Shown here: positions 22,604-39,911 of the stretch, piece by piece
Layout of the letters: each line of letters opens with the position of its first letter
How positions within the stretch are numbered: position 1 is the stretch's first letter
Origin: Bacteroidaceae bacterium
Lineage (GTDB): Bacteria > Bacteroidota > Bacteroidia > Bacteroidales > Bacteroidaceae
Assembly: GCA_017551925.1 (NCBI GenBank)
Contig: JAFZKA010000004.1
Span: 1-61,373 of the forward strand
Reading direction: 5' to 3'
Length of the DNA stretch: 61,373 bases
Position numbers and translations under genes: made by a program
Notes under the pieces: generated by a model
Told to the model about the DNA's origin: nothing
Databases searched by the model: none
What the model saw: the letters and a program-made list of their open reading frames with translations, nothing else

Positions 22604-24037
22604 ATGAAGTTATTTACTGATGAGGAACTGGCCGTGCTGCTTGACCGCAAGGAGTTCAGGCTGCTGTCTCAGACTGCCGATAGTCTGGGACTGGAGTGCT
22701 ATGTGGTGGGAGGATATGTGCGTGACCTGTTTCTGGAGCGCCCCAGCAAGGATATTGATGTGGTTGTTGTAGGCAGCGGGCTTGAAATGGCCAAGGCTTA
22801 CGGCAAGGCATTGGGACGCGGCGCACACGTGAGCCTGTTCAAGAATTTTGGCACGGCACAGGTCAAGAAGGGTGACCTTGAGGTGGAGTTTGTGGGAGCC
22901 CGCAAGGAGTCTTATCACCGCGACTCACGCAATCCCATTGTTGAGGACGGCACTCTTGAGGATGACCAGAACCGCCGTGACTTTACAATAAACGCCATGG
23001 CCATATGCCTTAACGGAGACCGTTTTGGTGAACTGGTTGATCCGTTTGGCGGCATTGATGATTTGCAGGACCGTGTAATACGCACTCCGCTTGACCCGGA
23101 TATCACATTCAGCGATGACCCCCTGCGCATGATGCGTTGCATACGTTTTGCCACACAACTCAACTTTTACATTGAAGATGAGACTTTCAGTTCACTTGAA
23201 AAGAACCGTGAACGTATAGGCATAATATCAAAGGAACGTATAGCAGAGGAACTGAACAAGATACTGCTTGCCCCCATACCTTCAAAGGGTTTTATTGATC
23301 TGGACCGATGCGGCCTGCTTGAACTGATATTCCCTGAACTTACTGCTCTTGAGGGTGTGGAGACTGTGAACGGTCGCGGCCATAAGGATGTGTTCCTGCA
23401 TACACTTGAGGTGCTTGACAATGTAGCCCGTAACAGTAATGACTTGTGGCTGCGCTGGGCCGCCCTGCTGCATGACATAGGCAAACCCCGCACCAAAAAA
23501 TGGGAGCCTGAGCACGGCTGGACATTCTACAACCATAACTATGTGGGCATGAAAATGATTCCCGGCATATTTGAACGTATGAAACTGCCCAAGAATGAAA
23601 AGATGAAATACGTTCAAAAGATGGTTGAACTGCATATGCGCCCCATAGCCATTGTTGATGATGAGGTGACAGACTCTGCCGTACGCCGTCTGCTTTTTGA
23701 TGCCGGTGATGACATTGATGACCTGATGACCCTGTGTGAGGCCGACATAACCTCAAAGAACGAGCAGAAAAAGAAACGCCATTTGGAGAATTTCAAACTG
23801 GTTCGGCAAAAGATGGTTGACCTTGAAGAGAGGGACAGGATACGCAATTTCCAGCCTCCTGTTGACGGATTGGAGATAATGCGCACATTCGGTCTGGAGC
23901 CTACCGCCATTGTGGGTGAACTGAAAGCCGCTATAAAGGATGCAATCCTTGACGGAGTGATTCCTAATGAGCATGATGCCGCATTCAGTTTCCTGATTGA
24001 TGAGGCACGCAAGCGTGGGCTCGAGCCTGTAATCTGA
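22604..24037 (+). CDS. cca: CCA tRNA nucleotidyltransferase/poly(A) polymerase family protein with HD domain
   Basis: The protein has 477 residues. The class II nucleotidyltransferase head has GGYVRDLFLERPSKDIDVVV with the two catalytic Asp residues, and RRDFTINAMA plus DPLRMMRCIRFATQL follow. An HD domain is seen at LLHDIGKP with HNYVG. In Bacteroidota such proteins add or repair the tRNA 3'-CCA end, and the HD domain suggests an extra phosphohydrolase activity. The ATG lies almost at the likely transcription start, so the mRNA may be nearly leaderless. Confidence 0.93.
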   Translation: MKLFTDEELAVLLDRKEFRLLSQTADSLGLECYVVGGYVRDLFLERPSKDIDVVVVGSGLEMAKAYGKALGRGAHVSLFKNFGTAQVKKGDLEVEFVGARKESYHRDSRNPIVEDGTLEDDQNRRDFTINAMAICLNGDRFGELVDPFGGIDDLQDRVIRTPLDPDITFSDDPLRMMRCIRFATQLNFYIEDETFSSLEKNRERIGIISKERIAEELNKILLAPIPSKGFIDLDRCGLLELIFPELTALEGVETVNGRGHKDVFLHTLEVLDNVARNSNDLWLRWAALLHDIGKPRTKKWEPEHGWTFYNHNYVGMKMIPGIFERMKLPKNEKMKYVQKMVELHMRPIAIVDDEVTDSAVRRLLFDAGDDIDDLMTLCEADITSKNEQKKKRHLENFKLVRQKMVDLEERDRIRNFQPPVDGLEIMRTFGLEPTAIVGELKAAIKDAILDGVIPNEHDAAFSFLIDEARKRGLEPVI

Positions 24038-24067
24038 TTACATTAACCTGAACATACTGACCTGATT

Positions 24068-26386
24068 ATGACTAAGAAAGGGCTTATTCCAGTTTTATGT
24101 GCCGTATTGGTGGCATTTGTATCCGTATCATGTGGCCTCAAGGTGGAGTTCGGCAAGTCACCTGTCAAGAGGGTGGTTGCTGCAATGACACTTGAGGAAA
24201 AGGTAAGCCTGCTTGTGGGTGTTGGCGCCTGGAACGGCAATGATATTGCCCAGGAGATTAAGGATGCCAAGGCCCTGATACCAGGTTGTGCCGGTCAAAC
24301 CTATCCCATACCGCGTCTGGGTATCCCGTCAGTAATGTTACCCGATGGCCCTGGCGGCCTGCGTATCAATCCAACGCGTCAGGATGATGATAAGACATAT
24401 TACTGCACATCATTCCCTGTTGCAACACTGTTGGCCCAGAGTTGGAACCCGCAACTTGTTGAAGAGGTTGGTGCCGCCATAGGTGATGAGGTAAAACGTT
24501 ATGGTGCAGACTGCCTGCTTGCTCCTGCATTGAACCTTCATAGAAATCCGTTGTTGGGCCGCTCATTCGAGTATTACTCTGAGGATCCCGTTGTATCAGG
24601 CAAGACAGCCGCAGCCATGGTTCGCGGAGTGCAGAGCAACGGAGTAGGGGCCACCATCAAGCACTACGCCCTGAACAACCAGGAGACCAACCGCATGGCC
24701 AATGACGTGCGTATTGACCAGCAGACAGCACGTGAACTCTATCTCAAAGGTTTTGAGATTGCAGTCCGTGAGTCACAGCCGTGGGCGGTAATGACATCAT
24801 ACAATAAGATCAACGGCACATATGCCCCTGAGAACGCAACCCTTATAGACAGCATACTGCGCCGTGAGTGGGGCTTTGAGGGTATGGTCATGACAGACTG
24901 GGGTGGCGGCCGTGATGCCGTTGCCACTGTTGAATCTGGTAATGACCTGCTTATGCCGGGCAGTGCCAATCAGATTAAGGCAATAATTGATGCGGTTGAG
25001 GACGGCACTCTTGATGAAAAGGTCATAGACCGTAATGTGGTCAACGTACTTGCATTCATAGACCGCTCACCCAAAATGCATGGTTATGAGTTTCTGAATG
25101 ACCCAGACTTGACGGCACATGCCCAGGTATCGCGTTCAAGCGCAACAGAGGGTATGGTGCTGCTTAAGAATAACGGCGCCCTGCCGCTTGACAGCAAATG
25201 CCGTATGATTGCCCTGTACGGTGTCAGTTCATATGACCTGTATGTGGTAGGTACCGGTAGCGGCAGTGTGAACTACAAGCATGCCGTAGGGCTTGATGAG
25301 GGACTCAAGGCTGCCGGCTACAAGTTGGAGCCCTCTGTCTCAACGGCATACAGCAGGTATGTAAGCGAGCATAAGAGTGCAGCGCGTCCGGGTGATTTTA
25401 TGCGCACCAACCTGACCAATCATGTAATCCCGCAGTCACTTGTACGCAAGCCTTTCCAGTATCGTGCCGATGCCATTGCAAGTGATATTGCAATCATCAC
25501 CATAGGCCGCAGTTGCGGAGAGTCTGCAGACCGTACTTATGATGGTGATTACACACTTACGGAGATAGAGCAGGGCCTTATCACAGATGTATGTGATGCA
25601 TTCCACTCAAAGGGTAAAAAGGTGGTGGTGATACTGAATATCGGTGCTCCTATTGAGACTGCCAGTTGGAAATCACAGCCCGATGCCATACTGCTTGCCG
25701 GACTCCCCGGCCAGGAGGCTGGATATGCCATAACAGATGTACTGAAAGGCGCCGTCAACCCGTCAGGCAAGTTGGTTGATACGTATGCTATTGACTATAT
25801 GGATATGCCGTCAACCGCCAACTATCCGCTCAATGCCCGTGAACTCCAGCAGCAGGCACGTGCCAACCGAGGCAATCCTGATGCCAAGCCCGTGGCTCTT
25901 TATGATTACACTGAATACAAGGAGCGCCTTGACATAGGCTACCGTTATTATGACTGTCATCCTGAAAAGGTCTCTTATCCGTTCGGATTCGGACTCAGTT
26001 ATACCACATTTGCGTACAGCGAGCCTCAGGCCAAGGTTGTTGACGGCATTGTTACTCTCTCTGTTAAGGTTACCAATACAGGTAAGGTGGCAGGCAAGGA
26101 GTCAGTGCAGGTCTATATTGAGGCCCCCAATGGAGGTCTGAACAATCTAAAAAAGGAACTCAAGGCATATGGCAAGACCGCCCTGCTTATGCCCGGTGCA
26201 TCAGAGGTGCTTGAGTTCAAACTGTCAGGCTATGAACTGGCCGGTTTTGATATGTTATCTTCAAGTTGGCAGACCCTGCCAGGTGAATACAAGGCTGATT
26301 TTGCCGCCTCATCACAGGATATCCGCTGCCAGTCGGCATTCACTGTTGCAGAATCAACCAACTATCCTGCCTACGGCACTCTGTAA
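24068..26386 (+). CDS. Glycoside hydrolase family 3 beta-glucosidase-type lipoprotein
   Basis: The protein has 772 residues with a lipoprotein signal (SVSCGLK, Cys near residue 20). The GH3 N-terminal barrel has MLPDGPGGLR, GRSFEYYSEDP, IKHYALNNQETNR and the nucleophile Asp in GMVMTDWGG (about residue 278). The GH3 C-terminal alpha/beta sandwich and a C-terminal fibronectin-III-like domain (PFGFGLSYTTFAYSE onward) follow. It hydrolyses beta-linked glucosides or related sugars at the cell envelope. It lies 30 bases after the CCA-type gene with no adjacent SusC/SusD pair, so it is an isolated glycosidase. The substrate is not predictable. Confidence 0.93.
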   Translation: MTKKGLIPVLCAVLVAFVSVSCGLKVEFGKSPVKRVVAAMTLEEKVSLLVGVGAWNGNDIAQEIKDAKALIPGCAGQTYPIPRLGIPSVMLPDGPGGLRINPTRQDDDKTYYCTSFPVATLLAQSWNPQLVEEVGAAIGDEVKRYGADCLLAPALNLHRNPLLGRSFEYYSEDPVVSGKTAAAMVRGVQSNGVGATIKHYALNNQETNRMANDVRIDQQTARELYLKGFEIAVRESQPWAVMTSYNKINGTYAPENATLIDSILRREWGFEGMVMTDWGGGRDAVATVESGNDLLMPGSANQIKAIIDAVEDGTLDEKVIDRNVVNVLAFIDRSPKMHGYEFLNDPDLTAHAQVSRSSATEGMVLLKNNGALPLDSKCRMIALYGVSSYDLYVVGTGSGSVNYKHAVGLDEGLKAAGYKLEPSVSTAYSRYVSEHKSAARPGDFMRTNLTNHVIPQSLVRKPFQYRADAIASDIAIITIGRSCGESADRTYDGDYTLTEIEQGLITDVCDAFHSKGKKVVVILNIGAPIETASWKSQPDAILLAGLPGQEAGYAITDVLKGAVNPSGKLVDTYAIDYMDMPSTANYPLNARELQQQARANRGNPDAKPVALYDYTEYKERLDIGYRYYDCHPEKVSYPFGFGLSYTTFAYSEPQAKVVDGIVTLSVKVTNTGKVAGKESVQVYIEAPNGGLNNLKKELKAYGKTALLMPGASEVLEFKLSGYELAGFDMLSSSWQTLPGEYKADFAASSQDIRCQSAFTVAESTNYPAYGTL

Positions 26387-26440: not shown

Positions 26441-26480
26441 GCGGGACAAATTTGTCCCGCATTTGTCCCATTTTTGTCCC
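26441..26480. promoter_or_regulatory. Operator array: 16-bp palindrome plus 11-bp-phased TTTGTCCC units (site 1)
   Basis: GGGACAAATTTGTCCC (26443-26458) is a perfect palindrome, extended to 20 bp by the flanking GC on both sides. TTTGTCCC units start at 26451, 26462 and 26473, exactly 11 bases apart, so they lie on one face of the helix. The last unit ends 32 bases before the -7 box TATATTTG (26513-26520), placing the array at about -84 to -47, a typical activator position. An array of the same design precedes the gene at 30473-32530. Confidence 0.85.
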
Positions 26481-26512
26481 GCGTATTTATTCAAACAGTA
26501 TCATTACAATTA

Positions 26513-26520
26513 TATATTTG
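26513..26520 (+). promoter_or_regulatory. -7 box of the TPR-regulator promoter
   Basis: TATATTTG matches TAnnTTTG. Transcription would begin near 26527, about ten bases before the ATG at 26537. There is no TTTG at the -33 position. This fits a promoter that needs an activator bound at the array just upstream. Confidence 0.6.
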
Positions 26521-26536
26521 TGGATATTTAAAAAAG

Positions 26537-28156
26537 ATGACAAAGAGAATAGCAGTACCCTTATTATCCCTATTTGTTCTTTTTGTTTCATGTAGGGATA
26601 TTGACACTTATCGTAATCTGCAGTATGTGGAGCAGTTGCTTGAAACTGATGCTGTGGCGGCCGATTCAATTCTTGGCTCCATTCAACTTTCAGGTAATAA
26701 ACGTAACAGGGCATATTATGCTGTCCTAAAGACACAGGCGGATTACAAGAACTATGTCGTTGCTCAAGATGACAGCCTTATCCTTAGTGCCGTAAGGTAT
26801 TATGACAACCGTTATGGTAATAAAAAGAACTATCATGCCGCCATGGCATGGTACTCGCTTGGCTGTGTCTATACTGACATGGAGAATGATGTTGAGGCCA
26901 TTAATGCATATCTGACCGCAAAAGCATTGTTTCCGGATACCCTGGTACGCTATTATGCACTTGCAGAACAGAACCTTGGCCAACATTATCTGGACCAGAT
27001 GATGTTTGATCTCTCTTTGAGCAACCTTAGGGGGGCACTCAAGAACTCGCTTAGGCTTCATGACAACGTGCTAACCTCAAACGTAAGGTATCTTATTGCC
27101 TTGAATGCATTGCATCAGGCAGACTACATGGTTGCAGACTCTCTCTTTACTATTATTCTTAAGGACCCTCTTTCATCAAGCATACGCAACCGCCAATGTT
27201 ATATGAGCCTGGCCAAGATTTATCTGAACGGATATCAGGATTATTCCAAGGCCATGAAATATATTGACCGCTACCTGTATGAGTTAAAGGACTCATTTGA
27301 GATGGGCGTGGGTTACAGCGTAAAGGCAGACATTTATTTTGAGACACAGGAGTATGATTCGGCATACCTTTATTACAATAAATCCATGGAGTGTCAGTAT
27401 GAACTCTATACCGTATGTGACAACTGCGGTAAACTTGCAGTTCTTTCCGTAATTAAAGGCAATCCAGATGAGGCTCTTGAATACATGGAACTCCATGATG
27501 AACTTATAGACTCCATCTATGAAATGCGCAAGGATGTAGCCATAGAGGATGTAATCCGCAAACATGATATTATGTTGAAGGATAGTGAGACCAGATTCAG
27601 GAACAAAAGACTCATAATAATCAGCATGTCACTGCTGGTTCTTTTCATTATGGCATATCAGTTATACAGGTCAGTACTACGTATTAAATATGCCCGTAAT
27701 GAGATAAAACAGCGCGACCAGATCAGGAATAACAACATAGAGGTTATTAAGGCCCATATGTTAGATACGCCAGACAATGATCTGGGGCTATCCAGAGAGT
27801 CTATCATGGCATTGTACAGGGAACGTCTGAATACGTGCAAGGATGTTTTCAGAGCAACTTCAGAGTATTCATGCCTGTCACAAAAGCTGTTGAATAACAA
27901 CTATCTGTTCAATGCTGAAGAACGGACTTCCATAATAAACAAGATATCAGAGATTTTCATAGACGTAATACTTGATATGAACATTGAGATAGAAAACCTG
28001 AGCAGGGAGGACATAATTATATGCATTCTTTCATGTATGAGTTTCAATAACAAGTTCATATCGTCATTCATAAACATTTCTGAGAGCGGAGTCAGAAAAC
28101 GCAAGTTGCGTCTTGTGGAAAAGTCAAGAAAAGAATTTATTGAACTGTTCATTTAA
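26537..28156 (+). CDS. Membrane-anchored TPR protein with putative C-terminal DNA-binding domain (transcriptional regulator)
   Basis: The protein has 539 residues from the ATG at 26537, which gives a signal/lipoprotein-like start with LFVSC (Cys19). An ATG at 26474 would lie inside the promoter. Residues ~30-340 form TPR-like helices (AMAWYSLGCVYTDMENDVEAI; YFETQEYDSAYLYYNKSM). One membrane segment follows at about 357-375 and then a coiled coil. The cytoplasmic C-terminus contains a helix-rich, LuxR/HTH-like segment (about 485-530: LSREDIIICILSCMSFNNKF, ISESGVRKRKLRLVEK). Bacteroidales have many such one-component regulators sensing envelope signals. Ten bases downstream lies a type IX cargo gene. 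I infer it binds the TTTGTCCC array and so controls itself. Confidence 0.75.
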   Translation: MTKRIAVPLLSLFVLFVSCRDIDTYRNLQYVEQLLETDAVAADSILGSIQLSGNKRNRAYYAVLKTQADYKNYVVAQDDSLILSAVRYYDNRYGNKKNYHAAMAWYSLGCVYTDMENDVEAINAYLTAKALFPDTLVRYYALAEQNLGQHYLDQMMFDLSLSNLRGALKNSLRLHDNVLTSNVRYLIALNALHQADYMVADSLFTIILKDPLSSSIRNRQCYMSLAKIYLNGYQDYSKAMKYIDRYLYELKDSFEMGVGYSVKADIYFETQEYDSAYLYYNKSMECQYELYTVCDNCGKLAVLSVIKGNPDEALEYMELHDELIDSIYEMRKDVAIEDVIRKHDIMLKDSETRFRNKRLIIISMSLLVLFIMAYQLYRSVLRIKYARNEIKQRDQIRNNNIEVIKAHMLDTPDNDLGLSRESIMALYRERLNTCKDVFRATSEYSCLSQKLLNNNYLFNAEERTSIINKISEIFIDVILDMNIEIENLSREDIIICILSCMSFNNKFISSFINISESGVRKRKLRLVEKSRKEFIELFI

Positions 28157-28166
28157 ATATTAGAGT

Positions 28167-29456
28167 ATGAAAAGAGTAGTTTTAACATTGTTTTTTGTTG
28201 TTTTAGCATTGGCGTCAATAAATGCCAAGGTATATATTCGTCTGGTAAAAACCACATCAGGGGGACACACCGGTGCTGCCAGAGCCGGTATAAGGACAAG
28301 TGTGTATGAGCCAATGGCCTTTTTTGAGGGTGATTCCCTTTACATACAGTTTCCTGCAAACACTGTTTCAAGTGTAATTATCACAAATGATTCAACGGAT
28401 CTGGCTATCATGACCCGGAATTTTGAACAAGAATCCAGTCTTATCAGTATGGATATTTCTTCACTGAGACGGTATCATCCATACAATCTGTCTGTCAACG
28501 CATTCGGAGTCTGGTGGGTAGGCTATTTTGATTATTTGGAAACAACAAGCAGCCAGTCAATACAAAAAGGTTTTTCTTTCATAGTTGATGATATGGGCAA
28601 GGAACGCAATTATGGTATCTATAGTATTGCGGGTAACGCCAATCCAGGCTGGAACTATGGAATAAGCGGAATTGTTTCAGGTCAGAACAGCGGAACAGGA
28701 ATTTACGGGTCATCCATGCAAGATGAGGGATTCAACACAGGCGGGCGTTTTGCCGGTTTGTTCCATGGAGACCTTAAGACAACCGATGCGGTATATGCAT
28801 CGGCATATAACACATTGGCTGATTCCAGGTTAAACAAGGATATGGAGCAGTTGGAGAGTGATGGCCTGGATAAAATAATGCAGGTTAGCGTATTCAGATA
28901 CGGCCTTAAGCAGTTTGACGTGGATAATGGATCTGAAACAATACCATTGGGATATTACAATGATGATTCGGGCATACTTGATAAAGAACATTACGGCCTG
29001 TCAGGGCAGGAAATAAAAGAGATATTTCCCAATCTGGTAACTGAGAATCAGGAGGGCTATCTTTCAATCAATTACGTAGAGATGGTTCCGTTGCTTATTC
29101 AATCAATCCAGGAACTCAAAACGGAGTTGGATAACACAAATGCAGAACTGGAGTCGCTTAAAACAGGTACTAAAGCCATAACCAGAACAATAGATCAGAC
29201 TGTTATGTACCAAAATACCCCGAATCCATTCAAGGAAAAGAGTATTGTGAACTGTTTTATTCCACAATATGTAAAAGATGCTTCATTCTATCTGTATGAC
29301 TATAGCGGCCGTCAAATACAGTGCAGAGAAATTCAGGATAGAGGCAATGTGCAGATTGTAGTTGATGGTACTGAACTGGAACCGGGAATATACTTGTATT
29401 CTTTGATTGCTGACGGTGTTATAGTGGATACCAAGCGTATGATTCATATTGAGTAA
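28167..29456 (+). CDS. Secreted protein with peptidase-S74-like chaperone domain and type IX C-terminal sorting domain
   Basis: The protein has 429 residues and a signal peptide ending ASINAK. Residues ~100-210 are Gly/Asn-rich, as in tail-fibre-like beta structures (GNANPGWNYGISGIVSG). Residues ~211-335 resemble the S74 intramolecular chaperone: ADSRLNKDM, YGLSGQEIKEIFPNLV, GYLSINYVEMVPLLIQSIQEL and a terminal coiled coil. The usual self-cleavage site SDxRLK reads ADSRLN here, so cleavage is doubtful. Residues ~345-429 are a type-A sorting domain (YQNTPNPFKEKSIV, YDYSGRQIQ, ELEPGIYLYSL). It is co-transcribed with the TPR regulator. Confidence 0.8.
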   Translation: MKRVVLTLFFVVLALASINAKVYIRLVKTTSGGHTGAARAGIRTSVYEPMAFFEGDSLYIQFPANTVSSVIITNDSTDLAIMTRNFEQESSLISMDISSLRRYHPYNLSVNAFGVWWVGYFDYLETTSSQSIQKGFSFIVDDMGKERNYGIYSIAGNANPGWNYGISGIVSGQNSGTGIYGSSMQDEGFNTGGRFAGLFHGDLKTTDAVYASAYNTLADSRLNKDMEQLESDGLDKIMQVSVFRYGLKQFDVDNGSETIPLGYYNDDSGILDKEHYGLSGQEIKEIFPNLVTENQEGYLSINYVEMVPLLIQSIQELKTELDNTNAELESLKTGTKAITRTIDQTVMYQNTPNPFKEKSIVNCFIPQYVKDASFYLYDYSGRQIQCREIQDRGNVQIVVDGTELEPGIYLYSLIADGVIVDTKRMIHIE

Positions 29457-29482
29457 TAAAGCATCCTTTTCTACGACAACAT

Positions 29483-29510
29483 AAAAGAGGGTGAATCCAC
29501 CCTCTTTTTT
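29483..29510. terminator. Bidirectional intrinsic terminator between convergent units
   Basis: AAAAGAGGGTG pairs with CACCCTCTTTTTT around the four-base loop AATC. T runs (or A runs on the other strand) flank both sides. It stands between the S74-like gene and the convergent gene at 29537-30397 and can end both transcripts. Confidence 0.9.
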
Positions 29511-29536
29511 GTTGTGCTCACCTATCTGAGTTACCC

Positions 29537-30397
29537 TTATTTTATAAAGACTTTATTGACAGTGCCATCAGCATTGGTTCTGATTTGGATTCCTGTAGAT
29601 AATGGTTCAACTCTTTTCCCATCCAAGCCGTAACTGGAAATCTTTTCTTCTGTATTTGATTTACCAATAGAATTCACTTGGGTCTGATCTGACTGTTCCA
29701 AGCGACAGAGTGCCTTATCTGCATTGGAATAGACGTATAAAAAGCCTTGATATCCGGCTATTCCCGCAGGAGATTTTATGTTTACAACAGCATCAGAATA
29801 TGCTATTTGATTTTCGGTTCGTTCTTTTGCGTATGTAAGGGATACGCACTCATTCAAAAGACTTATACCGTAAACTATGCCACCATAAACACATAAGCCT
29901 ACGATACAGGGTGTCCAGAAAACGGGAATGCTTAATTCTTCAAAAAGGTTCCTTACCTGATCACTGTAAGAGTATCTTGTTGTACGCCCCCAATATACGT
30001 AAATGCCTGATGATGTCGCTGCAATATATTGACTTTCAAATGATTCTAAATTTTTCTCACCTTCACGAAGTACGCTGGCAATAGAATCTCCCTTTGTATT
30101 CTCAACCTTCAAATCATTTAAGATTAATGTATCACCATTAAAAACCGTAAAGTAGGTATATGGATTGTCCGTTATACTCAATATGGAACCTTGAGAATCT
30201 GTCTTAACAAGTTTTCCGGTTACAGTCTGAAAACAGAACTCGGCATTTCCTGAACCTGTTCCAATAGTATCAATGTAGAAATTGTACACACTATCTGTAT
30301 CCAGTTCAAACACCTTCACGGCGTTAAACACCGTTTGTGAATGTGCAAAAAATGCAGACAGAATAAATACATACAAAAGTGCAATTTTCCTTTCCAT
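29537..30397 (-). CDS. Exported protein of unknown function with short C-terminal sorting-like motif
   Basis: The protein has 286 residues and a signal peptide ending FFAHSQ. The body is a series of beta strands with short repeats that could be part of a propeller (AATSSGIYVYWG; GYQGFLYVYSNADKALCRL). One hydrophobic stretch in the middle is probably buried. The last ~33 residues (YGLDGKRVEPLSTGIQIR, ending KVFIK) look like the short Prevotella-type C-terminal sorting tail (usually YDLxGRRV...GLYI...K). No named family is recognised. It lies 75 bases after the Ig-like gene on the same strand and probably shares its promoter. AT content is higher than in the housekeeping genes around. Confidence 0.7.
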   Translation of the reverse strand: MERKIALLYVFILSAFFAHSQTVFNAVKVFELDTDSVYNFYIDTIGTGSGNAEFCFQTVTGKLVKTDSQGSILSITDNPYTYFTVFNGDTLILNDLKVENTKGDSIASVLREGEKNLESFESQYIAATSSGIYVYWGRTTRYSYSDQVRNLFEELSIPVFWTPCIVGLCVYGGIVYGISLLNECVSLTYAKERTENQIAYSDAVVNIKSPAGIAGYQGFLYVYSNADKALCRLEQSDQTQVNSIGKSNTEEKISSYGLDGKRVEPLSTGIQIRTNADGTVNKVFIK

Positions 30398-30472
30398 TTA
30401 TTTCAAGTAAAAGGTTTATACTACGTATGCAATTTTATCTCAAGACAACCTGTTTATGTTACCAGAATAATA

Positions 30473-32530
30473 TTACTTGAACAGTTTCTTTTCAGTGCGT
30501 ACACTACCGTCGCTATAATATGTAGCAACTATTGTCAAGCCTGAGGGTACATCCATTGGAGAGCCAAGCAGGTCATAATACTTAATCCCAATTTCTTGCG
30601 GTTCATTATCTGCAGTCTTGACATCAGTTGTAGAGCTCCAAAGAATCAATTGGTAAACCAGAGTAGTATGCGGTGTCGCATATTTCAAATAACCTGTCTC
30701 GTATAGGCTTCTACAAACAGACAGCACATCCATTGTCTTTGGTACCTCATATAGTGCATATCTAATCCTTTCAAGTTCTTCAACCAAGTTCAGATTAAAA
30801 TCATTTATGATTCTTAATTTATCATCATTGGTCACTTCTTTTTTGAAAGATATTTCAATTCCATCAAGACCAAAATCCTTGGGATTTGTCAAGCCTTCTC
30901 TCAATAAAAATTCATAATCACTAATATCAAGATACTTATGACTTACCCCAATTACAAGATCTTCCATAAGTAAAGCATTCATTGCCCTCTCCACGTTTTC
31001 AGGATTTGTAAATACTGTTAAATCGCTATCATTATTCCAAATAATATCTGATTCCTCAACATATCTTTTAATGATAGACTCCATTAAAGATTTATTTGTA
31101 CTAGGATTAATTCTTACCATAAATCTATCAACAATCTCGTACAGATATTTCTTATCGCCATTATCTAAGTAATAAAATGGTAGAGTTGTTTTGTCAATAG
31201 GCTGAATCGGAAGTGTCTTTTTGTGGGTAATAAAGCTCGGACTTACAAGTCTAAAACAACCTGACTCTTGCAATTGGTTAGCAATAGCGATAATATCCAT
31301 GCCCTTCTGGATATGTGCCGAACCTCCGTCTATCCCCTGATAGTATATTTCAAGCCCCATTGATTCCATCAACGCATCTGCCTGGTTATTAGCTTCTATA
31401 TCCACGTTGTTTATATAACGAAAAGATATATCACCTGTAAAACAATATGTAGCTACCTTATTCACGGGATACAAGTCCATCAGGTCTTTATATGTTTTCC
31501 TGATGTAATTTTTACTTGCGAATGATACCGCATTCTCATCAAGGAGATTCTTAATAGCATAATCCAGGTTTCCGGATTCAGTTATTACCAAACAGAAATC
31601 GGCTAGCCCACTAATATTAGACCATTCAAACTGGGCATCAGGAAGATATTCTCTTACAACTACTTCCAGAGAATCTTTATCTATGTCAGACCTTTTTTGA
31701 ACTGTTATTTCGTCTGACAACGGATATAACAGAATTGGATAAATATCTTCAACTTTAGGCACATAGTAAGAGTAATCTGCATCATAACCGTAAACATACG
31801 GATATTCAGACTTTATGCCTATGCTTTCTGTCTTGGTGGTGCCGTCTGTTGATGATCCCCTTCTGATTGAATAACTGGCAAAACTGTTGTTTGATTCCAA
31901 AACCTGTGTTCTGTTGTTGAGATATATATTGTAGGCTGGTGCGTTACAATCATTTATTTCAAGAGTAAACGGTTGAGGATAGAAATTCATTGTTGAATCA
32001 GAATAGTCTATCTCAAACCAAAGAAATATACACTGGTCTGACACGGTGTAATTCAGTTGGTTGTTTTTGGCGCCGCTACCATAGTATGTACCTTGGGCAA
32101 TAAGGCTGCCCTCATCTGTCAATGTGAATTTCATATCATTCCATTCACATTCTGTGGTAGGTTCAAATTGCTTGCTCCCAGTCCTTACTGCACCTTGATC
32201 AAGTACCGTAACTGAGGTCTGCTTTCTTGAACTGCCATCCAATGATTCCACAGCAACGTAAGATTTACCTGCTTTCAAAGCTGTAACAAGTCCGTTCTGG
32301 TCAACGACTGAAACAGGATTAACCGTAAAATCCCACGCTCCGCTTATCCATCTTACTTTTGCATTTGCGGGATTTACATGTAATTGGAAACTTTCACCTA
32401 CTATAAGAGTAATGTTCTGCTCTTCAATGGTGAAATCAGTTACCAGTGTAGTATCTTTCTGCGCATACGCGTAACTACACACACACATCATTGCGAGTGT
32501 AAAACCTAATTTAGTCAAAGTCTTTTTCAT
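30473..32530 (-). CDS. Secreted Ig-like protein with four tandem subtilase-propeptide-like modules and short C-terminal sorting tail
   Basis: The protein has 685 residues from the ATG at 32530, with a signal peptide ending SYAYAQ. Longer in-frame starts would run through the operator. Residues ~31-111 form a bacterial Ig-like (BIG2) domain (ITLIVGESFQLHVNPANAKV). Residues ~112-260 form a beta-rich domain. Residues ~272-627 hold four ~75-residue modules. Each ends with a pattern like IANQLQESGCFRLVSPSFI or VCRSLYETGYLKYATPHTTL, resembling propeptides of secreted subtilases, but no Asp/His/Ser protease domain is present. Modules 1-2 and 3-4 align as a duplicated ~150-residue unit. Residues ~650-685 (YYDLLGSPMDVPSGLTIVA, ending KKLFK) look like a short sorting tail. 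It is preceded by operator site 2. Confidence 0.75.
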   Translation of the reverse strand: MKKTLTKLGFTLAMMCVCSYAYAQKDTTLVTDFTIEEQNITLIVGESFQLHVNPANAKVRWISGAWDFTVNPVSVVDQNGLVTALKAGKSYVAVESLDGSSRKQTSVTVLDQGAVRTGSKQFEPTTECEWNDMKFTLTDEGSLIAQGTYYGSGAKNNQLNYTVSDQCIFLWFEIDYSDSTMNFYPQPFTLEINDCNAPAYNIYLNNRTQVLESNNSFASYSIRRGSSTDGTTKTESIGIKSEYPYVYGYDADYSYYVPKVEDIYPILLYPLSDEITVQKRSDIDKDSLEVVVREYLPDAQFEWSNISGLADFCLVITESGNLDYAIKNLLDENAVSFASKNYIRKTYKDLMDLYPVNKVATYCFTGDISFRYINNVDIEANNQADALMESMGLEIYYQGIDGGSAHIQKGMDIIAIANQLQESGCFRLVSPSFITHKKTLPIQPIDKTTLPFYYLDNGDKKYLYEIVDRFMVRINPSTNKSLMESIIKRYVEESDIIWNNDSDLTVFTNPENVERAMNALLMEDLVIGVSHKYLDISDYEFLLREGLTNPKDFGLDGIEISFKKEVTNDDKLRIINDFNLNLVEELERIRYALYEVPKTMDVLSVCRSLYETGYLKYATPHTTLVYQLILWSSTTDVKTADNEPQEIGIKYYDLLGSPMDVPSGLTIVATYYSDGSVRTEKKLFK

Positions 32531-32561
32531 AAAAATAAGCATTTTTGGTTCAACTTCCACG

Positions 32562-32593
32562 CAAAAGTCATTGCAATTATATGAAAAACCAAA
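32562..32593 (-). promoter_or_regulatory. Promoter of the Ig-like/propeptide-repeat gene
   Basis: On the minus strand TTTG (32593-32590) is followed after 20 bases by GACTTTTG (32569-32562), a good -33 box and a -7 box that departs from TAnnTTTG at one base. Transcription would start near 32555, about 25 bases before the ATG at 32530. The operator array ends exactly 32 bases upstream of the -7 box, as at site 1. Confidence 0.6.
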
Positions 32594-32601
32594 TAAAAAA
32601 T

Positions 32602-32639
32602 GGGACATTTTCGGGACATTTTCGGGACAAATTTGTCCC
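32602..32639. promoter_or_regulatory. Operator array: 16-bp palindrome plus 11-bp-phased GGGACA units (site 2)
   Basis: GGGACAAATTTGTCCC (32624-32639) is identical to the palindrome of site 1. GGGACA units begin at 32602, 32613 and 32624, an exact 11-base period. Seen from the minus-strand gene, the order is palindrome, unit, unit, then 32 bases to the -7 box, the same geometry as site 1. The unit spacers differ from site 1 (GAAAATGTCCC here), so the match is in motif and spacing, not simply a copied block. Confidence 0.85.
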
Positions 32640-32678: not shown

Positions 32679-35600
32679 TTATCTGGTCAGAGTGAATTTC
32701 AGGGTCATGCCGGCATCATGTGTTGATGTGGGGAATGATGAGGTGGATACCAGCGGGAAATTGCTCTGGTAGTCATAGTAGAAATTTACGGTGAGCATAC
32801 GGCTGTAGGTGTAGTCTGCCTGGAATGACAACTTGATGGCACGGTTGCCGCTTGTGGCCTGGGTGGTTGATTCACGCAGGTTGCGGCAGAGTGCGTTCTG
32901 GTTCCTGAGTGAGAAATCCATGCTCATGTTAAGGTCATTGCTTACCTGATTACGGCCGGATCCCTGTTTTGCTCCGAACAGTTTAAGGCCGTTTATCTTG
33001 TAGCCGGCACCCGCGGTGATGTCATCGGATGTGGTCTCAACCAGTTGGACTGCCGTTGTGCTTAGAGTCAGTACGCGGGTCTTTCTGTACTCAAAGCGTG
33101 CCGATATGTTGTTCTTAAAGGTCATGTCAACTCCGGCTAACGGTGCGAAAGATTCATTGATTGAAACGGAACTGATGTTGAACATGCTGCTTGGTATGGG
33201 ATTGCCGCTTGTAACATCGTCAATGAATCCGCGACCGTTCATGTATTCAATATAACTGTTGAACGTGTTGAAACTGCCCACAGAATACACGCTCTTGTAG
33301 GCATGTTTCAGGTTGAAACTCTTGAAATATTTCTGGAAGAAAGGCAGTTTTGACAATCCGCTGTAGGTCAGTGACCAGTTGGGCAGCATGCTCAGCATTG
33401 AGGGGAACAGGTCAAGCGATGCCTTGTTTGCATCACGTCCGGTATAGGCGGCAAGGAAAGCCGGTATCAACACATCAGACGAATACATGTCAACGGCTCC
33501 GTTTGACGGGTTGTACAACTGTCCTGCAAGGCTGCTGCCTGCGGGATAGCGGGCGCCGTCATACATCTCCTCTATGCGGTCACGGAAAGTGGGCAGGCTG
33601 TTAATGAAACGGTCAAATGTACGTGAATGGTAGTTGTTGTTTGGAGAATGGCTCTCAAAGGCGCTTCCAATGGTTATTACGGTCATTGAGAAACTGCCGC
33701 CACGTGTGCTGGGCATACCTGCATACATATATTGAATGCGGTTTGAACCTGATTTGTTCCAACTGGCATTGGCGTCAATCTTTATGTCACTGAACGGTTC
33801 AATTGACATCTTGATTTGAAGGTCCTCTGTAGCGTTCGATGAAGCGGAGTGGGCTATGCTGTCATTTGAGAGCAACCAGTTGTTGTCCATTGCCTTGTAG
33901 AGATAGTCATCGCCTGTAAAGCCGAATGCAAAGTCAAGTCCCGGAGCAAGCAGCCCGTATGCTTTGTTCTGGCCAAACAACTTGGAGTCTGGCATAAAGC
34001 CGGGCAGTGACATGGAGTAGTTGTTGCGGTATGTGACATTAAAGTTCCTTACCATCATAAGGACGCGGAGTCCCATGTCAACGCCCTCATGGAAATTGAA
34101 TTCTCTGTTGCGCGGCTGTCTGTCAGGGTCTTGGATAACCTTGATTACCAGGCTCAGTGTATCCTTAACCTTGATTGAGAGACTGTCTGCTCCTAACTTG
34201 CGGTATTTGAGTTTTACCCGGCTGCCGTCCTTGGCCGTTGCGGTCAGTTTTGGGGTGAAAGTGCCCAGATTGTGTTTTATTACGTTCTTCTTGCCCGGAA
34301 CAAGCAGAACCTCCTCCTGGAAATTCTTGGCTCTTCGGGTGGTCTGCGTTGAAGGCCTGTTGGATACGTAACGGTTGTTTATGCGATGCAGGTATGTTAC
34401 CTTGTTATAAAGGTTGAGCAGGTTGAACCGGCCGTTTACAGAAATGTCACGGCGTGTTGATATTATGTTACCGTATGATTTGCCTTGGGCGTAGGTGGTT
34501 CCTCTGTTCCATGAATAGTTTGAACTGAAACTCATGTCCATGTTGAGCCAGTCAAAAGCCGGTATCAGGTTCAGAGGCAGAGCGTATGATGCCTGGAATG
34601 ACTGTCCGTAATCAAGCGGGCGTCCCATGTTCATTATACTCATCTTGACTGAATCTTTCCATATCTGATACTGGTCAGGATAGAGGTCCTTGTTGACCAC
34701 CATATACGGCTCCTCAATCTCTGCTCTTGTGTTGGCTGAGAATGACAGTTTGAGCAGTTTGATTGGATCCCAACGTAGTGAAAAATCGCGGTTCCAGTAG
34801 AATTGCTGTGAGAACACAACGGGAATACCGTCAGACCCCTCAAGGTCACGCTCCTGCAGTTCATGATAACTGCGCTGGAATCCGGTATTGAATGATATGC
34901 TCTGCGGAACAAAATTGATGGTGGTCTGTTTGATGGGCGCAAACAGTGCAGCCTCTGAGCCTATGTTACTGAACGGCTGCCATCCTTTTATTCCGGGAGA
35001 ATAACTGTAGTCCATTGATGCTCTCCAGTTCTCATCATGCTCATACTCTATGGTGCTGCTGCTGTTGTCCTGAACGCTCTTGGAATAACTGAAAGAGAAA
35101 TTGGCAGGGTCATACGGCATTGGAGTCTCGCTGCTTATGTTGACCTTGGCGTTTGAGATGCTGAAATTATGACTCTCTCTTATCTGTTGCGTAATGCTGC
35201 GAATGGAGTCACGCGAATGGCTGTCAGGATATGACTCAATGACATCATCCAACAGCAGGTCTGTGTCATACGGACTGTATTTGGGTGACGTGTTCTCTTT
35301 TGAGAATGAGTAGTAAACCGGCACAGAAATGTGTGAACTTTCAGGGAGGAATCGGCCCACGTTGAAACTGGTGGTTGCCGAGTATTTGTAATAGTCATCA
35401 GTGCGGCGCTCCTTGATGCCCTGTTCCAGGCCTCCGTATCCGGCTGTGGTCATCTGTCCGGCAAGGTCAACAGAGGCTACGTCAGACAGTCTGAGTCCGA
35501 GCGTTCCGTGCGCTGCCATACCTCCCTTGCTCTCATATCCTACCAGACGCAGTTCATTAACCCATACCTCGGCTGATTTTGCGCTCATGGAGTTGTTCCT

Positions 35601-38600
35601 GACACCAATCATTATTGCACGCACATTGCCTATTGACGGGTTGCCGACCACGCTGATGCGGTTGTCAGGGTTGTTGGGGTCATATTCGCTATATACGGCA
35701 GAACTGCTTATAGCGCCCAGGTTCTTCTGTACATTGCGGTTGTTCTTGACCTGGGTGAGTATGTTGAAATCAATGTCAAGCATGTTGCTCTCCGGCCATA
35801 CCATACGGCGGTCATTGTCATTTGTTCCGCTGTAGTGTCCGGCTGGAGTCAGGTCAAGCGGAATCTCATATTCGTAATAGTTGCCTGAGTAGTCAGAACC
35901 CATTCTGATGAATACTGAAATATCACCGTTCTTGAGCGTGCCGTCATCGGGCAGGACAGCCTCAGCATGGGTGAACATCTGTATGCGCTTGTATTTGCGC
36001 AGGTCAAGTGAACTCTTTTTGTATATGCCGCGTGCCTCACCTGCACCAAGTCCTGTCACCTTGAGGCTCATGGCCTGCTCGTTGTCCTGAACCAACTGGC
36101 TCTGGCTGGGGTCAAGGATACGTGTCACGCCTGGCGGAACAACGTAGTTCACGGGTGAGCGGTCACCGTTCTCCTCAATGTTGACCGATGTGGCTGAGAA
36201 CTTGCCTGATATGGTCGGAGTGCGGTTGGTGGCACTGTAAATGGGCTGTTCATAGTTGCGCCATTGGCTGGTCATGAGTTCCAGCGTTCCGAAACGAACG
36301 TGCACCTCCTCTGAGAATCCGGTCAGGTATATTCGCATGAACCTGATGGAACTGAAATCACGTATGCCTCCCTCTGCCTTTTCATAATCTGAGATTGGAA
36401 CGCGGAAACAGTACCAGTTTACTGTCTCCGTATTGCCGTTGCGCAGTTTTACCTTGACTTCACGCTTGTCAGATATGTAGTTGCGGCCTATCTCAAAGTC
36501 TGTGGGGCGTAGTGATATGCGGTACTGGAAAAATTTCTCATATTCGTCAAGTGTATAATCACCGTTTGCATCCTCAACATCGGGGGTGGTACGTGAAGAC
36601 TGGTCATATTGGCTTCCGCTCTCGGCAGAGTTGGGGGAGTTGCCCTCTGTGCCGTTGTATTTACGGTAGCGGTCCAGGACTGACATCTGCACGTCATCAT
36701 AGTCTGAACCACGGTAGTAGTGATAGTTGTCTGCAGCAGGGTCATCATAGAATGTCTGATATACCTCAGGTTTAAGTTTGCCTCTGATCTCATTTAGGTA
36801 TGATGCGTATGCCGGCCAACTGCGCTCCTCCTCAGTTGAAAGACCGTTCAGTCCAACGTCCTGTCTGTCACGGCTGTTGGCATTGTTGTTGTCAAAGGCA
36901 TAGACAAGGCTCTTTGCTGTGGGTATCTTGCCCCATACGGTGCTTGCCCATTTGGCGGTATCGCCGTCGGCCGGAAGTCCGTTCTCAAAGAATTTCTTGC
37001 CGTCAAGAAGCACATCCTCTGATACCTCACCTAGGTTCAGGTACATATCACCGCCTTTGGCTCCCTGATTGTATATGAACGGATCAAGCATCCAGAACTC
37101 AATGTATTCTATGTTGGCCGCCTCAAAGTCAGTGGTTGAGATCTTGCGCATTATACCGCCCCAGTTGTCCTGAGGGTCGGGCAGATGTCCGTCGGCATCA
37201 AGGTCAGGGTTGAGGTTGTACGGGCCGCGCTCATTGGGATAATATGCAAGGTTCAGAACCTGGAGTGTTGTGGATTCACTTGATGTGGATTCCTTGTTGG
37301 GATACAACTCTCGTTCATAAACCTCACGCACATAGTGGTTTGACAACTGGTCAAGGTCACTCTTAAGGTGTGACGGGGTCAGCGGTGAGTTGCGGCGGGT
37401 AAAAAGAGGGTCTATGCTGAACCAGTTCAACAGCGCACGGTTAAAGCCTGATTCAATATCTCCTGATTTTCCGTATCCTTTCATTCCTTTTGGAACGGCT
37501 GACAGGCTCCAGGCATGCGGCTGGGCCATGTTAATGCCGCTCTCAGCCGCCTCAAAGTCATCAATGTATGAAGCCTGTCCCTGAACCTTGTCAGAGACTT
37601 TTGACTGCAGGGCGGCCATTTCAGCCTTAAAGTTTATGCTTGAAGGTTTGGTGGCGTTGACAAACGGTATGTAGTTTATCAGTTTTGTAATGGCCTGACT
37701 CTCATGTTTCCAGTTTATGTTGAGTCCGTACATGGTGTTGACCAGCGGTTCGTCACCCATTGTCACCTTGCTTGTGAGCGGTTTCTCATTCAGGTGCATA
37801 AAGGTACCTCCAATCTGGAAATCCTTGCTGAAATCATACATCCAGTTGACTCCGGCCATGGTCTTGCGCTGCATGCTGAATTCGGTATTGCTCTCCAACT
37901 GAACGTTTACGCTTGTACCGGCATCAATTATGCTTTGGTTGATGATGGTGACCGTACCCATGCTGTAGTCAACGGTGTAGTCACTGTTCTCTACCAGTGT
38001 CACACCGCCTGCAGTTACTATCACTGAGCCGCGCGGAATATTGTATGAACCCAGTGTTATGACGTTGCTGCCGGAACCTGAATACTGTCCCATAAGCACG
38101 AACTTGTCTTTATCGGCAATACGTTTGGCCACCACGCGGGTTGAGTCATACAACTCCTGGAACACATACTTGTCGGCAATCTGGTCATTGCCTATGACTT
38201 TTCTCAGATGGCTTCCAAAGGGCTCAACTACCGGGAATATGATCTTTCCGTTTGATGCCTGAACGGTATAACCCTGTATAAAGTCAAACTTGCCGTTGGG
38301 GTGCAGGGCCTGATTGTCATCCAGGCGGTCCAGGTTCATTAAACGCAGAAGCGGCGAGTTCTTGAGTCCCGGTTCAGGCAGATATGAGATGCGGCTGCCT
38401 GTGCTGTCACTGTCATAGTAGATGCCCAGTTTGAATTGTGCGCTCTGAATGTTACCCTGGGTGATGGAGTAGATGTTTTTCATCATCAGGTCCCAGGTTC
38501 CGCTTCCGGGTGAGTTGGCGTTTGATTTCAGGAGTTTTACGTAGAGCGTCTGGGCTGCATCGGTCTTGTCTGATGAGAACTCACCCACCTGATAACTGTT

Positions 38601-39911
38601 GCCTGCGTATGTGTATTCATATGCTACGGCCAGAACCTCATCGGATGTAAGGGCGTTCTTGAGTGATATGTAACCCAGTTCGCTGTTCAGCGTATAGTCT
38701 GATGTGCTCAGTTTGCGGGCGCTTGAAATCTTTTCATAGTCAGTGCTGCCGGTAAGGAACTGGCCTATTGTGACAGCCACCTGATCTATATCGCGTGACT
38801 GCGGGTAGTCATTGCAGATACGGCTGTAAAGGTCATTCGCCGAGTTTGAAGGGACAGATGAGCCGCTCGCATTCCAGGTGGGGTTGCTCAGATGACTTGT
38901 TTCACCCAGGTCAGTGAACGCCACTATGTTACGCGGGTTGTCATAGTTGCTGCGCTTGTTCGTTACCCAAACCTCAATGCGCGTTATCTGTATTCCTGAT
39001 ACAATGCTGGGCAACATTGACATGTTGGCGTCATAGTTGTCACGGAAAAAGTGTGCCAGAAAGAAATGGCGGTTCTCATCATAACTGCTGGCGTCAATCT
39101 CAAAATCAGTTATCTGCTGTCCGCCCTGTGAGTTTACCGATGTTGATGATGACTCTTTCTGTGAGAGAACCATCTGCAGGTTCAGTTTGCCGAATTGCAG
39201 GTCTGTGCGTACGCCGAAAAGTGATGTGGCGCCCTGTATCAGGGATGAGTTGGTGGGGAAACTTATGTTACCTGCCTCCAAAAGGCGTATTATCTCATCC
39301 TCCTTACCCTCATAGCGCATTTTTATCATTTTGGCGTCAATGTCAAATGTGGCCTCGGTGTTATAGTTGAGGTTCATGTTGACTTTGTCGCCTACGCGGG
39401 CGTTTATGTTCAGGTTGATCTGCTCGTCAAAATCAAATCCGCCGGTAGAACGGTTCTGTACTGAGAGTGACGGGTTGTCAACTGTGTTGCGGTTATATCC
39501 GAACTTTACGGCTGCTGATCCGCTGGTCTTTACCTGTACGCCGCCCGGTCCGAATATCTTTTCGGCCGGACCCAGGTCAAATTTCATGTCGGTAAAATCA
39601 AAGCGGTTGTTATCCTGCGTTTTCAGTTCTTCAGAGTATTTGCTCTTGTAGTATGACTGCATGGAATACTGCATTGTCATACGGTTGAACTCCTCGGTAG
39701 TCATCAGGTCTGGCACGTCAAGGTAACTGTCACCCAACTTGTATCCTATCCTGTAGGTGTCATCGGTCTCATTGTATTCAACAGACTCTGTTATGTTTTC
39801 AGGGTTGGGCAGAGTAAGTTGGGGCTCCTGTGCATAAAGCCGGACAAGGCTTTCCGTAAATGGAAAGCCAGCAAGCATAATTATTGCAATAAGGTGCCGG
39901 AGTGATGACAT
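32679..39911 (-). CDS. sprA: Type IX secretion outer-membrane translocon SprA/Sov
   Basis: SprA (Sov) is the giant 36-strand barrel through which type IX cargo crosses the outer membrane. The 2410 residues begin with a signal peptide ending LVRLYAQ. Family features include the N-terminal repeated block around GPGGVQVKTSGSAAVKFGYN and NRNTVDNPSL, INLNINARVGDKVNMNLNYN, many long beta-strand stretches rich in Ser, Asn and Tyr, and a final strand GMTLKFTLTR. The length is typical (about 2400-2500). ruvA lies 23 bases upstream on the same strand, a conserved Bacteroidota pair. Eight consecutive C on the coding strand end two bases before the ATG. Confidence 0.95.
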   Translation of the reverse strand: MSSLRHLIAIIMLAGFPFTESLVRLYAQEPQLTLPNPENITESVEYNETDDTYRIGYKLGDSYLDVPDLMTTEEFNRMTMQYSMQSYYKSKYSEELKTQDNNRFDFTDMKFDLGPAEKIFGPGGVQVKTSGSAAVKFGYNRNTVDNPSLSVQNRSTGGFDFDEQINLNINARVGDKVNMNLNYNTEATFDIDAKMIKMRYEGKEDEIIRLLEAGNISFPTNSSLIQGATSLFGVRTDLQFGKLNLQMVLSQKESSSTSVNSQGGQQITDFEIDASSYDENRHFFLAHFFRDNYDANMSMLPSIVSGIQITRIEVWVTNKRSNYDNPRNIVAFTDLGETSHLSNPTWNASGSSVPSNSANDLYSRICNDYPQSRDIDQVAVTIGQFLTGSTDYEKISSARKLSTSDYTLNSELGYISLKNALTSDEVLAVAYEYTYAGNSYQVGEFSSDKTDAAQTLYVKLLKSNANSPGSGTWDLMMKNIYSITQGNIQSAQFKLGIYYDSDSTGSRISYLPEPGLKNSPLLRLMNLDRLDDNQALHPNGKFDFIQGYTVQASNGKIIFPVVEPFGSHLRKVIGNDQIADKYVFQELYDSTRVVAKRIADKDKFVLMGQYSGSGSNVITLGSYNIPRGSVIVTAGGVTLVENSDYTVDYSMGTVTIINQSIIDAGTSVNVQLESNTEFSMQRKTMAGVNWMYDFSKDFQIGGTFMHLNEKPLTSKVTMGDEPLVNTMYGLNINWKHESQAITKLINYIPFVNATKPSSINFKAEMAALQSKVSDKVQGQASYIDDFEAAESGINMAQPHAWSLSAVPKGMKGYGKSGDIESGFNRALLNWFSIDPLFTRRNSPLTPSHLKSDLDQLSNHYVREVYERELYPNKESTSSESTTLQVLNLAYYPNERGPYNLNPDLDADGHLPDPQDNWGGIMRKISTTDFEAANIEYIEFWMLDPFIYNQGAKGGDMYLNLGEVSEDVLLDGKKFFENGLPADGDTAKWASTVWGKIPTAKSLVYAFDNNNANSRDRQDVGLNGLSTEEERSWPAYASYLNEIRGKLKPEVYQTFYDDPAADNYHYYRGSDYDDVQMSVLDRYRKYNGTEGNSPNSAESGSQYDQSSRTTPDVEDANGDYTLDEYEKFFQYRISLRPTDFEIGRNYISDKREVKVKLRNGNTETVNWYCFRVPISDYEKAEGGIRDFSSIRFMRIYLTGFSEEVHVRFGTLELMTSQWRNYEQPIYSATNRTPTISGKFSATSVNIEENGDRSPVNYVVPPGVTRILDPSQSQLVQDNEQAMSLKVTGLGAGEARGIYKKSSLDLRKYKRIQMFTHAEAVLPDDGTLKNGDISVFIRMGSDYSGNYYEYEIPLDLTPAGHYSGTNDNDRRMVWPESNMLDIDFNILTQVKNNRNVQKNLGAISSSAVYSEYDPNNPDNRISVVGNPSIGNVRAIMIGVRNNSMSAKSAEVWVNELRLVGYESKGGMAAHGTLGLRLSDVASVDLAGQMTTAGYGGLEQGIKERRTDDYYKYSATTSFNVGRFLPESSHISVPVYYSFSKENTSPKYSPYDTDLLLDDVIESYPDSHSRDSIRSITQQIRESHNFSISNAKVNISSETPMPYDPANFSFSYSKSVQDNSSSTIEYEHDENWRASMDYSYSPGIKGWQPFSNIGSEAALFAPIKQTTINFVPQSISFNTGFQRSYHELQERDLEGSDGIPVVFSQQFYWNRDFSLRWDPIKLLKLSFSANTRAEIEEPYMVVNKDLYPDQYQIWKDSVKMSIMNMGRPLDYGQSFQASYALPLNLIPAFDWLNMDMSFSSNYSWNRGTTYAQGKSYGNIISTRRDISVNGRFNLLNLYNKVTYLHRINNRYVSNRPSTQTTRRAKNFQEEVLLVPGKKNVIKHNLGTFTPKLTATAKDGSRVKLKYRKLGADSLSIKVKDTLSLVIKVIQDPDRQPRNREFNFHEGVDMGLRVLMMVRNFNVTYRNNYSMSLPGFMPDSKLFGQNKAYGLLAPGLDFAFGFTGDDYLYKAMDNNWLLSNDSIAHSASSNATEDLQIKMSIEPFSDIKIDANASWNKSGSNRIQYMYAGMPSTRGGSFSMTVITIGSAFESHSPNNNYHSRTFDRFINSLPTFRDRIEEMYDGARYPAGSSLAGQLYNPSNGAVDMYSSDVLIPAFLAAYTGRDANKASLDLFPSMLSMLPNWSLTYSGLSKLPFFQKYFKSFNLKHAYKSVYSVGSFNTFNSYIEYMNGRGFIDDVTSGNPIPSSMFNISSVSINESFAPLAGVDMTFKNNISARFEYRKTRVLTLSTTAVQLVETTSDDITAGAGYKINGLKLFGAKQGSGRNQVSNDLNMSMDFSLRNQNALCRNLRESTTQATSGNRAIKLSFQADYTYSRMLTVNFYYDYQSNFPLVSTSSFPTSTHDAGMTLKFTLTR

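Follow-up and report, generated by a model that had tools for sequence, protein, structure and literature searches.

An 11-bp-phased promoter array as the likely operator of a membrane TPR-HTH regulator and its secreted cargo in a Bacteroidaceae bacterium

Two promoters in the genome of an uncultured, gut-type Bacteroidaceae bacterium carry the same phased repeat upstream, and one of them lies in front of a gene for a putative membrane-bound regulator. Both lie in the window, by which we mean the whole 61,373-nucleotide stretch of DNA analysed here. Which protein reads the repeat, and to what effect? We know of few regulators of surface or type IX cargo with a known operator in gut and rumen Bacteroidales. 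We consider it likely that the array serves as operator for the TPR-HTH product of 26537-28156, which would activate its own operon and secreted cargo; the binding, its direction and the membrane topology are what we infer.

Both window operators have the form GGGACA-N4-TGTCCC-N5-TGTCCC-N5-TGTCCC, with a -7 box 32 bases beyond the last unit. Site 1 (26443..26480, + strand) contains the inverted GGGACA at 26443-26448 and direct TGTCCC units at 26453-26458, 26464-26469 and 26475-26480, an 11-bp period. A gap of 32 bases (26481-26512) separates its last unit from TATATTTG, the -7 box of the regulator operon (26513..26520, + strand). Site 2 (32602..32639, - strand) has the same layout, with GGGACA at 32639-32634 and TGTCCC at 32629-32624, 32618-32613 and 32607-32602, and its -7 box, GACTTTTG (32569-32562, - strand), lies 32 bases from the last unit and belongs to the second cargo operon. 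The common 11-bp-phased operator, equal 32-base spacing and differing spacers of the original prediction are all seen at both sites. As in operators of the OmpR/PhoB or SARP type, 11-bp direct repeats are present upstream of the core promoter. The consensus TAnnTTTG, which the accessible text of one study gives for the Bacteroides housekeeping promoter (PMC7366714), is matched exactly at site 1 and at five of six fixed bases at site 2.

Such a layout is rarely reached by chance. With up to three mismatches allowed, the three-unit pattern has three matches in the window against 0.01 expected from shuffles; two are sites 1 and 2, and the third is site 2 shifted one unit earlier. The palindrome on its own is weaker evidence than the three-unit pattern, with two window matches against 0.22 expected and at least two reached by 3 of 100 shuffles. 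A -7 box with no more than one mismatch is found 32-34 bases from a random window position in 1.6% of cases, and in 3.9% within AT-rich stretches.

Genome-wide (2.62 Mb, 97% complete), there are no exact copies of the three-unit pattern besides the two window sites, and the reversed-pattern control gives none. At two mismatches a single match is added, a third site on contig 47 (C47) that was not chosen for its surroundings. It has a palindrome-like GGGACAAGTTTGTCCC upstream and an exact TATATTTG at 32 bases. Downstream of it come a 146-aa ORF in which a type IX sorting domain is recognized (54.8 bits, cut-off 27) and then a 2192-aa ORF. The latter is RHS/FG-GAP/SpvB-like (contig 47, L013:1605-8183, - strand). 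Since a profile search of the genome yielded only these three arrays and one weak match without an array, the strong regulon would comprise three promoters. A small target set had been predicted, and three strong sites, the third ahead of a type IX sorting-domain gene, agree with it; the regulon has few targets but is not isolated, being one member of a family with relatives across the order, many of which lack such an array.

The regulator gene (26537..28156, + strand) encodes a TPR protein, with TPR_2 at 32.6 bits against a cut-off of 27 and TPR_1 also above its Pfam cut-off. A lipoprotein-like signal and one membrane helix at about residues 359-381 were recognized by eye, and the membrane topology proposed for the protein is read from its sequence. 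Structure models predict a C-terminal HTH with helices at 28004..28123 (+ strand; residues 490-529), the part common to the other array-linked regulators. The modelled domain is all helix, free of strands and probably LuxR/GerE-like; Foldseek gives nothing under 0.001, and NprR is among the structure matches of the TPR part. Two of four array-linked relatives pass the GerE profile cut-off and a third passes Sigma70_r4_2 instead, while the HTH of the window protein itself has no Pfam HTH match, GerE included, at E up to 1.

Two other identities were considered for this protein and set aside. OmpR/PhoB and SARP regulators have a winged helix with strands; the C-terminal model has no strand. Hybrid two-component systems combine kinase, receiver and AraC-type domains within one protein, and Pfam shows only eight TPR families and a weak Sel1 match.

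The first cargo gene (28167..29456, + strand) begins 10 bases past the regulator gene and encodes an S74 chaperone domain above cut-off, a DUF3244-like N-terminal part below cut-off and a type IX sorting tail. The tail is supported by the NCBIfam model TIGR04183 (23.6 bits, cut-off 23), with the Pfam model below cut-off (19.8 of 27). The second cargo gene (30473..32530, - strand) has an ATG at 32530 or 32542 within a longer GTG ORF and encodes Big_2 Ig-like and Fervidolysin-type propeptide domains, both above the Pfam cut-off; its product matches no NCBIfam model, the type IX tail included, and has no Pfam tail, and its end is tail-like by eye only. Both operons probably encode secreted proteins, as originally proposed, although the models detect a type IX tail for the S74 cargo alone and none for the Big_2 cargo. 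The gene 75 bases downstream of the second cargo gene (29537..30397, - strand) has no Pfam family above cut-off and is probably co-transcribed with it.

Its start is nearly identical, by eye, to that of the last gene in the other regulator module of this genome. That module, on contig 98 (C98; L025:6457-11818), comprises a degenerate TGTCCC-type array, a paralogous regulator, a TGGACA array, DUF3244, an S74/type IX gene, an ORF without a Pfam family and the gene with the 29537-30397-like start. Around the window island, genes for beta-glucosidase, tRNA nucleotidyltransferase and sprA (by eye; 22604-26386 and 32679-39911) are partly kept in related genomes, and the cargo genes vary.

Within the genus, the three-unit array (up to one mismatch) was found in 7 of 37 genomes, with none for the reversed control. 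The same seven genomes, and no others, hold a regulator 68-100% identical to that of the window (7/7 versus 0/30), a co-occurrence that is largely trivial because one site adjoins the regulator gene. Four of the other six genomes (G005, G008, G012 and G025) have a pair of sites separated by 3-4 kb, of which one precedes the regulator and the other a different gene. We compiled 15 sites, including a degenerate one found by eye before the C98 regulator. A -7 box (up to one mismatch) lies at 32-34 bases in 13 of them and at 44 bases, about one turn more, in the other two; the inverted unit is GGGACA or GGGAAA in 10. The distal sites L011:11929 (G005) and L023:10175 (G008) have their best -7 box, with one mismatch, 44 bases away.

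TGTCCC pairs at the same promoter distance are also seen upstream of paralogues. The two-unit pattern TGTCC-N6-TGTCC-N32..37-TANNTTTG has 24 matches in 13 of the 37 genus genomes, against two for the reversed pattern. A downstream ORF could be assigned for 21 of the 24: ten are family regulators and eleven encode something else, many of the latter beginning, by eye, with signal-like sequence. Promoter-anchored two-unit arrays are present in 13 of the 27 genomes that contain a family member (E 1e-30) and in none of the 10 others (Fisher p 0.007). A profile model (E up to 0.05) matches 18 of the 37 genomes, including two of the 10 that lack a family member, G030 (E 4e-4) and G009 (E 0.009); the G009 match is poor in sequence, the G030 match has no -7 box, and neither resembles a full array with promoter. 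The G030 match, on contig 40 (position 14447, L215), is a perfect TTTGTCCC pair at 11-bp period. Genome G035 has two nearly identical promoters with a TGTCCA variant array on contigs 34 and 81 (L099, L111), one of which drives a DUF3244 gene.

Arrays of this kind extend beyond the genus. Across the order, the two-unit pattern has 47 matches in 36 of 393 genomes, and the reversed control has 9, so about 9 of the 47 would be chance matches; in 244 genomes outside the order, searched with a slightly narrower gap, there is no excess (2 matches versus 3 reversed). Forty loci with long flanks cover 41 of the 46 non-window matches; the five left out are four in G106 and one in G210, two of which were seen as short loci. 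At five places in G106 (contigs 272, 544, 637 and 750) and G210 (contig 581), a TGTCCC pair comes with almost the same promoter, which may mark a mobile repeat.

The genus-family HMMs detect a related ORF in 22 of these 40 loci, which had been found by DNA, and within 400 bp of the array in 16 of 40. As a control we took 190 other exact -7 boxes from the same loci, more than 2.5 kb from the array; only 8 have such an ORF within 400 bp (p 1e-8). The remaining 18 loci have no HMM-matching ORF in the examined stretch. Eleven of the ORFs were examined in full, most of them encoding TPR proteins in which a membrane helix can be recognized by eye; L165 combines a receiver domain with the same HTH. 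The HTH aligns across 41 rows, and the sensor parts vary among array-linked ORFs. That the HTH is what array-linked ORFs have in common is the strongest reason for naming it as the array reader.

Searching from the protein side gave less. Among 30 distant relatives chosen by protein, a TGTCC pair with a -7 box occurs in only four (reversed control 1), two of which (G102, G210) are loci already found by DNA, and 26 have no array; a period scan of the 30 shows no excess, with three at period 11 and zero to three at others. Relatives found by protein are MAGs of Bacteroidales, Bacteroidaceae or Muribaculaceae, several from reindeer, yak and water buffalo; those with RUG titles presumably come from rumen. 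In four distant genomes (L131, L137, L144 and L151, from G372, G130, G246 and G276, respectively) a regulator is followed by an array and then by a short ORF, which we take, by eye, to be acylphosphatase-like.

Some genus paralogues have different 11-bp-phased units, TGGACA, GGGACG, GTGACG or TTTCCG, at a similar distance from the -7 box of the next gene. Around 71 genus regulators we looked, at periods 7 to 16, for exact 6-base repeats that stop 28-37 bases short of an exact -7 box; the scan reached 300 bp upstream of the gene and 450 bp downstream of it, where such a box is present for 48 and 32 regulators, respectively. Upstream, 11 regulators have repeats at period 11 and zero to three at other periods; downstream, 11 have them at period 11, five at period 12 and none at any other. 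Looser matching narrows this lead, to 18 versus 4-10 upstream and 21 versus 4-13 downstream.

A second class of array occurs only downstream of the regulators of one clade, with units in the opposite orientation, three or four of which are visible; spacings counted by hand are about 11, 20-21 and 11, or 11 throughout. Its units are TGGACA after the C98 regulator and in G035, GGGACA in G008, GGGACG in G013 and G029, and GTGACG in G031, with AGGACA in G026 found with a looser box only. Both TGGACA regulators have the helix SGSRKFKARIKE, and a link between this helix and the unit is suggestive only, at n = 2. A genome search for the second class gave seven matches in the genus, five of them these arrays, against three reversed. 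On a tree of 65 genus regulators, omitting 6 of the 71 that are under 440 residues, 14 were labelled class A, 7 class B and 44 none; a rule on the word repeated assigned the labels, and for class A a fixed pattern served as fallback. Array class requires seven changes on this tree, against a shuffled mean of 19.3 with 0 of 200 shuffles as low, a clustering that may come partly from common descent of whole loci. The 44 regulators with no array by the scan criteria include the entire clade of this genome's C61 copy. The proposed link between operator and HTH regulator is supported by the genus co-occurrence, the order searches that began from DNA, and the other units beside some paralogues.

How might such a system work? 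We propose that the TPR part senses a signal outside the cytoplasm, and that the LuxR/GerE-like C-terminal HTH lies on the cytoplasmic side. Each 11-bp unit would take up one HTH, so that several of them line up head to tail along a single face of the DNA, and the inverted unit would hold one more. The array lies adjacent to the -33 region or slightly upstream of it, within reach of polymerase for an activator. There would be three targets: the operon of the regulator itself, which includes the S74/type IX cargo, that of the Big_2 cargo, and an operon on C47. The regulator would thus drive, by positive feedback, its own operon and cargo plus distant cargo. We can only guess that the TPR signal is tied to secretion or to the cargo itself. 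Some of its relatives in Bacteroidales probably use comparable layouts, their units varying from one regulator clade to another.

Activation is the direction suggested by position: the array ends 32 bases before the -7 box, at about the -33 region, so that a bound protein most likely contacts RNA polymerase and activates. The same protein might instead bind the array and repress, or do nothing beyond autoregulation. Regulators often autoregulate, yet arrays stop about 28-35 bases short of the -7 box without overlapping it, which fits activation; nor would autoregulation be the sole role, since for 11 regulators the array follows the regulator and precedes the next gene. We regard repression or pure autoregulation as unlikely. 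Slightly less likely still, in our estimate, is that another factor, such as a response regulator of the OmpR/PhoB type, binds the array and that the TPR-HTH gene is merely one of its targets. PHO boxes share the geometry, being tandem 11-nucleotide direct repeats bound head to tail in the accessible account (PMC4415409), but a single outside factor is difficult to reconcile with units that differ within one genome (TGTCCC in C43 and C47, TGGACA after the C98 regulator), that cluster with regulator clade, and that adjoin the same HTH family when arrays are found from DNA.

The window palindromes begin 56 and 39 bases past the stop of a co-directional gene, as a terminator or RNA hairpin of the upstream genes would if the repeats were incidental, but two-unit arrays lack such a palindrome, the G025 array lies between divergent genes and the distance to the -7 box is fixed, making this very improbable. 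Chance, or a mobile repeat copied together with its promoter, is scarcely credible even with one G106/G210 family in five places with a near-identical promoter, as spacers and promoters vary between sites, reversed-pattern controls are low, and array and regulator recur independently in the order search that began from DNA.

If the TPR-HTH protein does read the array, a broader picture is conceivable: a large, undescribed family of membrane TPR-HTH proteins in Bacteroidales, each with a private operator of 11-bp units at a fixed distance from the -7 box, a unit vocabulary set by the HTH, and neighbouring surface or secreted cargo. We find the considerations for and against this extension evenly balanced, and with arrays absent in 44 of 65 genus regulators and no excess among distant relatives, such a grammar is not proven for the whole family. 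If true, period, distance and adjacency would allow unannotated TPR proteins to be treated as transcription factors that can be tested and whose targets can be named. Such proteins would provide a natural collection of HTH variants, each matched to its own sites, and, since operator and regulator adjoin, an HTH-to-DNA code could be read from genomes and used for target prediction.

Several known systems share parts of this arrangement. MalT and NprR also join a TPR-type sensor to an HTH but are cytoplasmic. PhoB is a response regulator with a winged helix, unlike the C-terminal model of the window regulator, which has no strands. Its PHO box resembles the window arrays in its tandem 11-nucleotide repeats and head-to-tail binding, so far as the available text describes them (PMC4415409). 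The SARP-LAL regulator PimR offers a close likeness in its operator, with direct repeats at an 11-bp period upstream of the core promoter: the accessible part of that study describes three repeats upstream of -35, without overlap, and activation by monomers that cooperate and presumably occupy a single face of the DNA (PMC5930380). PimR has a SARP DNA-binding domain, whereas the window regulator has a predicted all-helix, LuxR/GerE-like domain and, by eye, a membrane-anchored look. The SusR-like regulators of Bacteroides are described, in the available text, as membrane-anchored with a C-terminal HTH, direct-repeat motifs and polysaccharide gene targets; when compared by operator motif, their two sites are 67 or 77 bp apart and the window units 11 bp apart (PMC3878776). 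BT_3442 is a TPR protein clustered with an Ig-like protein and MACPF proteins, and the accessible portion of its source describes no regulator role or operator for it (PMC2954219). Its family (NF053779) matches the window regulator weakly over the full length, and at 24.7 bits against a curated cut-off of 940 we rejected membership. A literature search, conducted largely outside subscription papers, found no 11-bp-phased operator for Bacteroidetes TPR-HTH regulators. The geometry is known from other families; what is new, relative to the literature found, is that it goes together with a membrane TPR protein and a probably LuxR-like HTH, that it recurs across the order and that the units change between paralogues.
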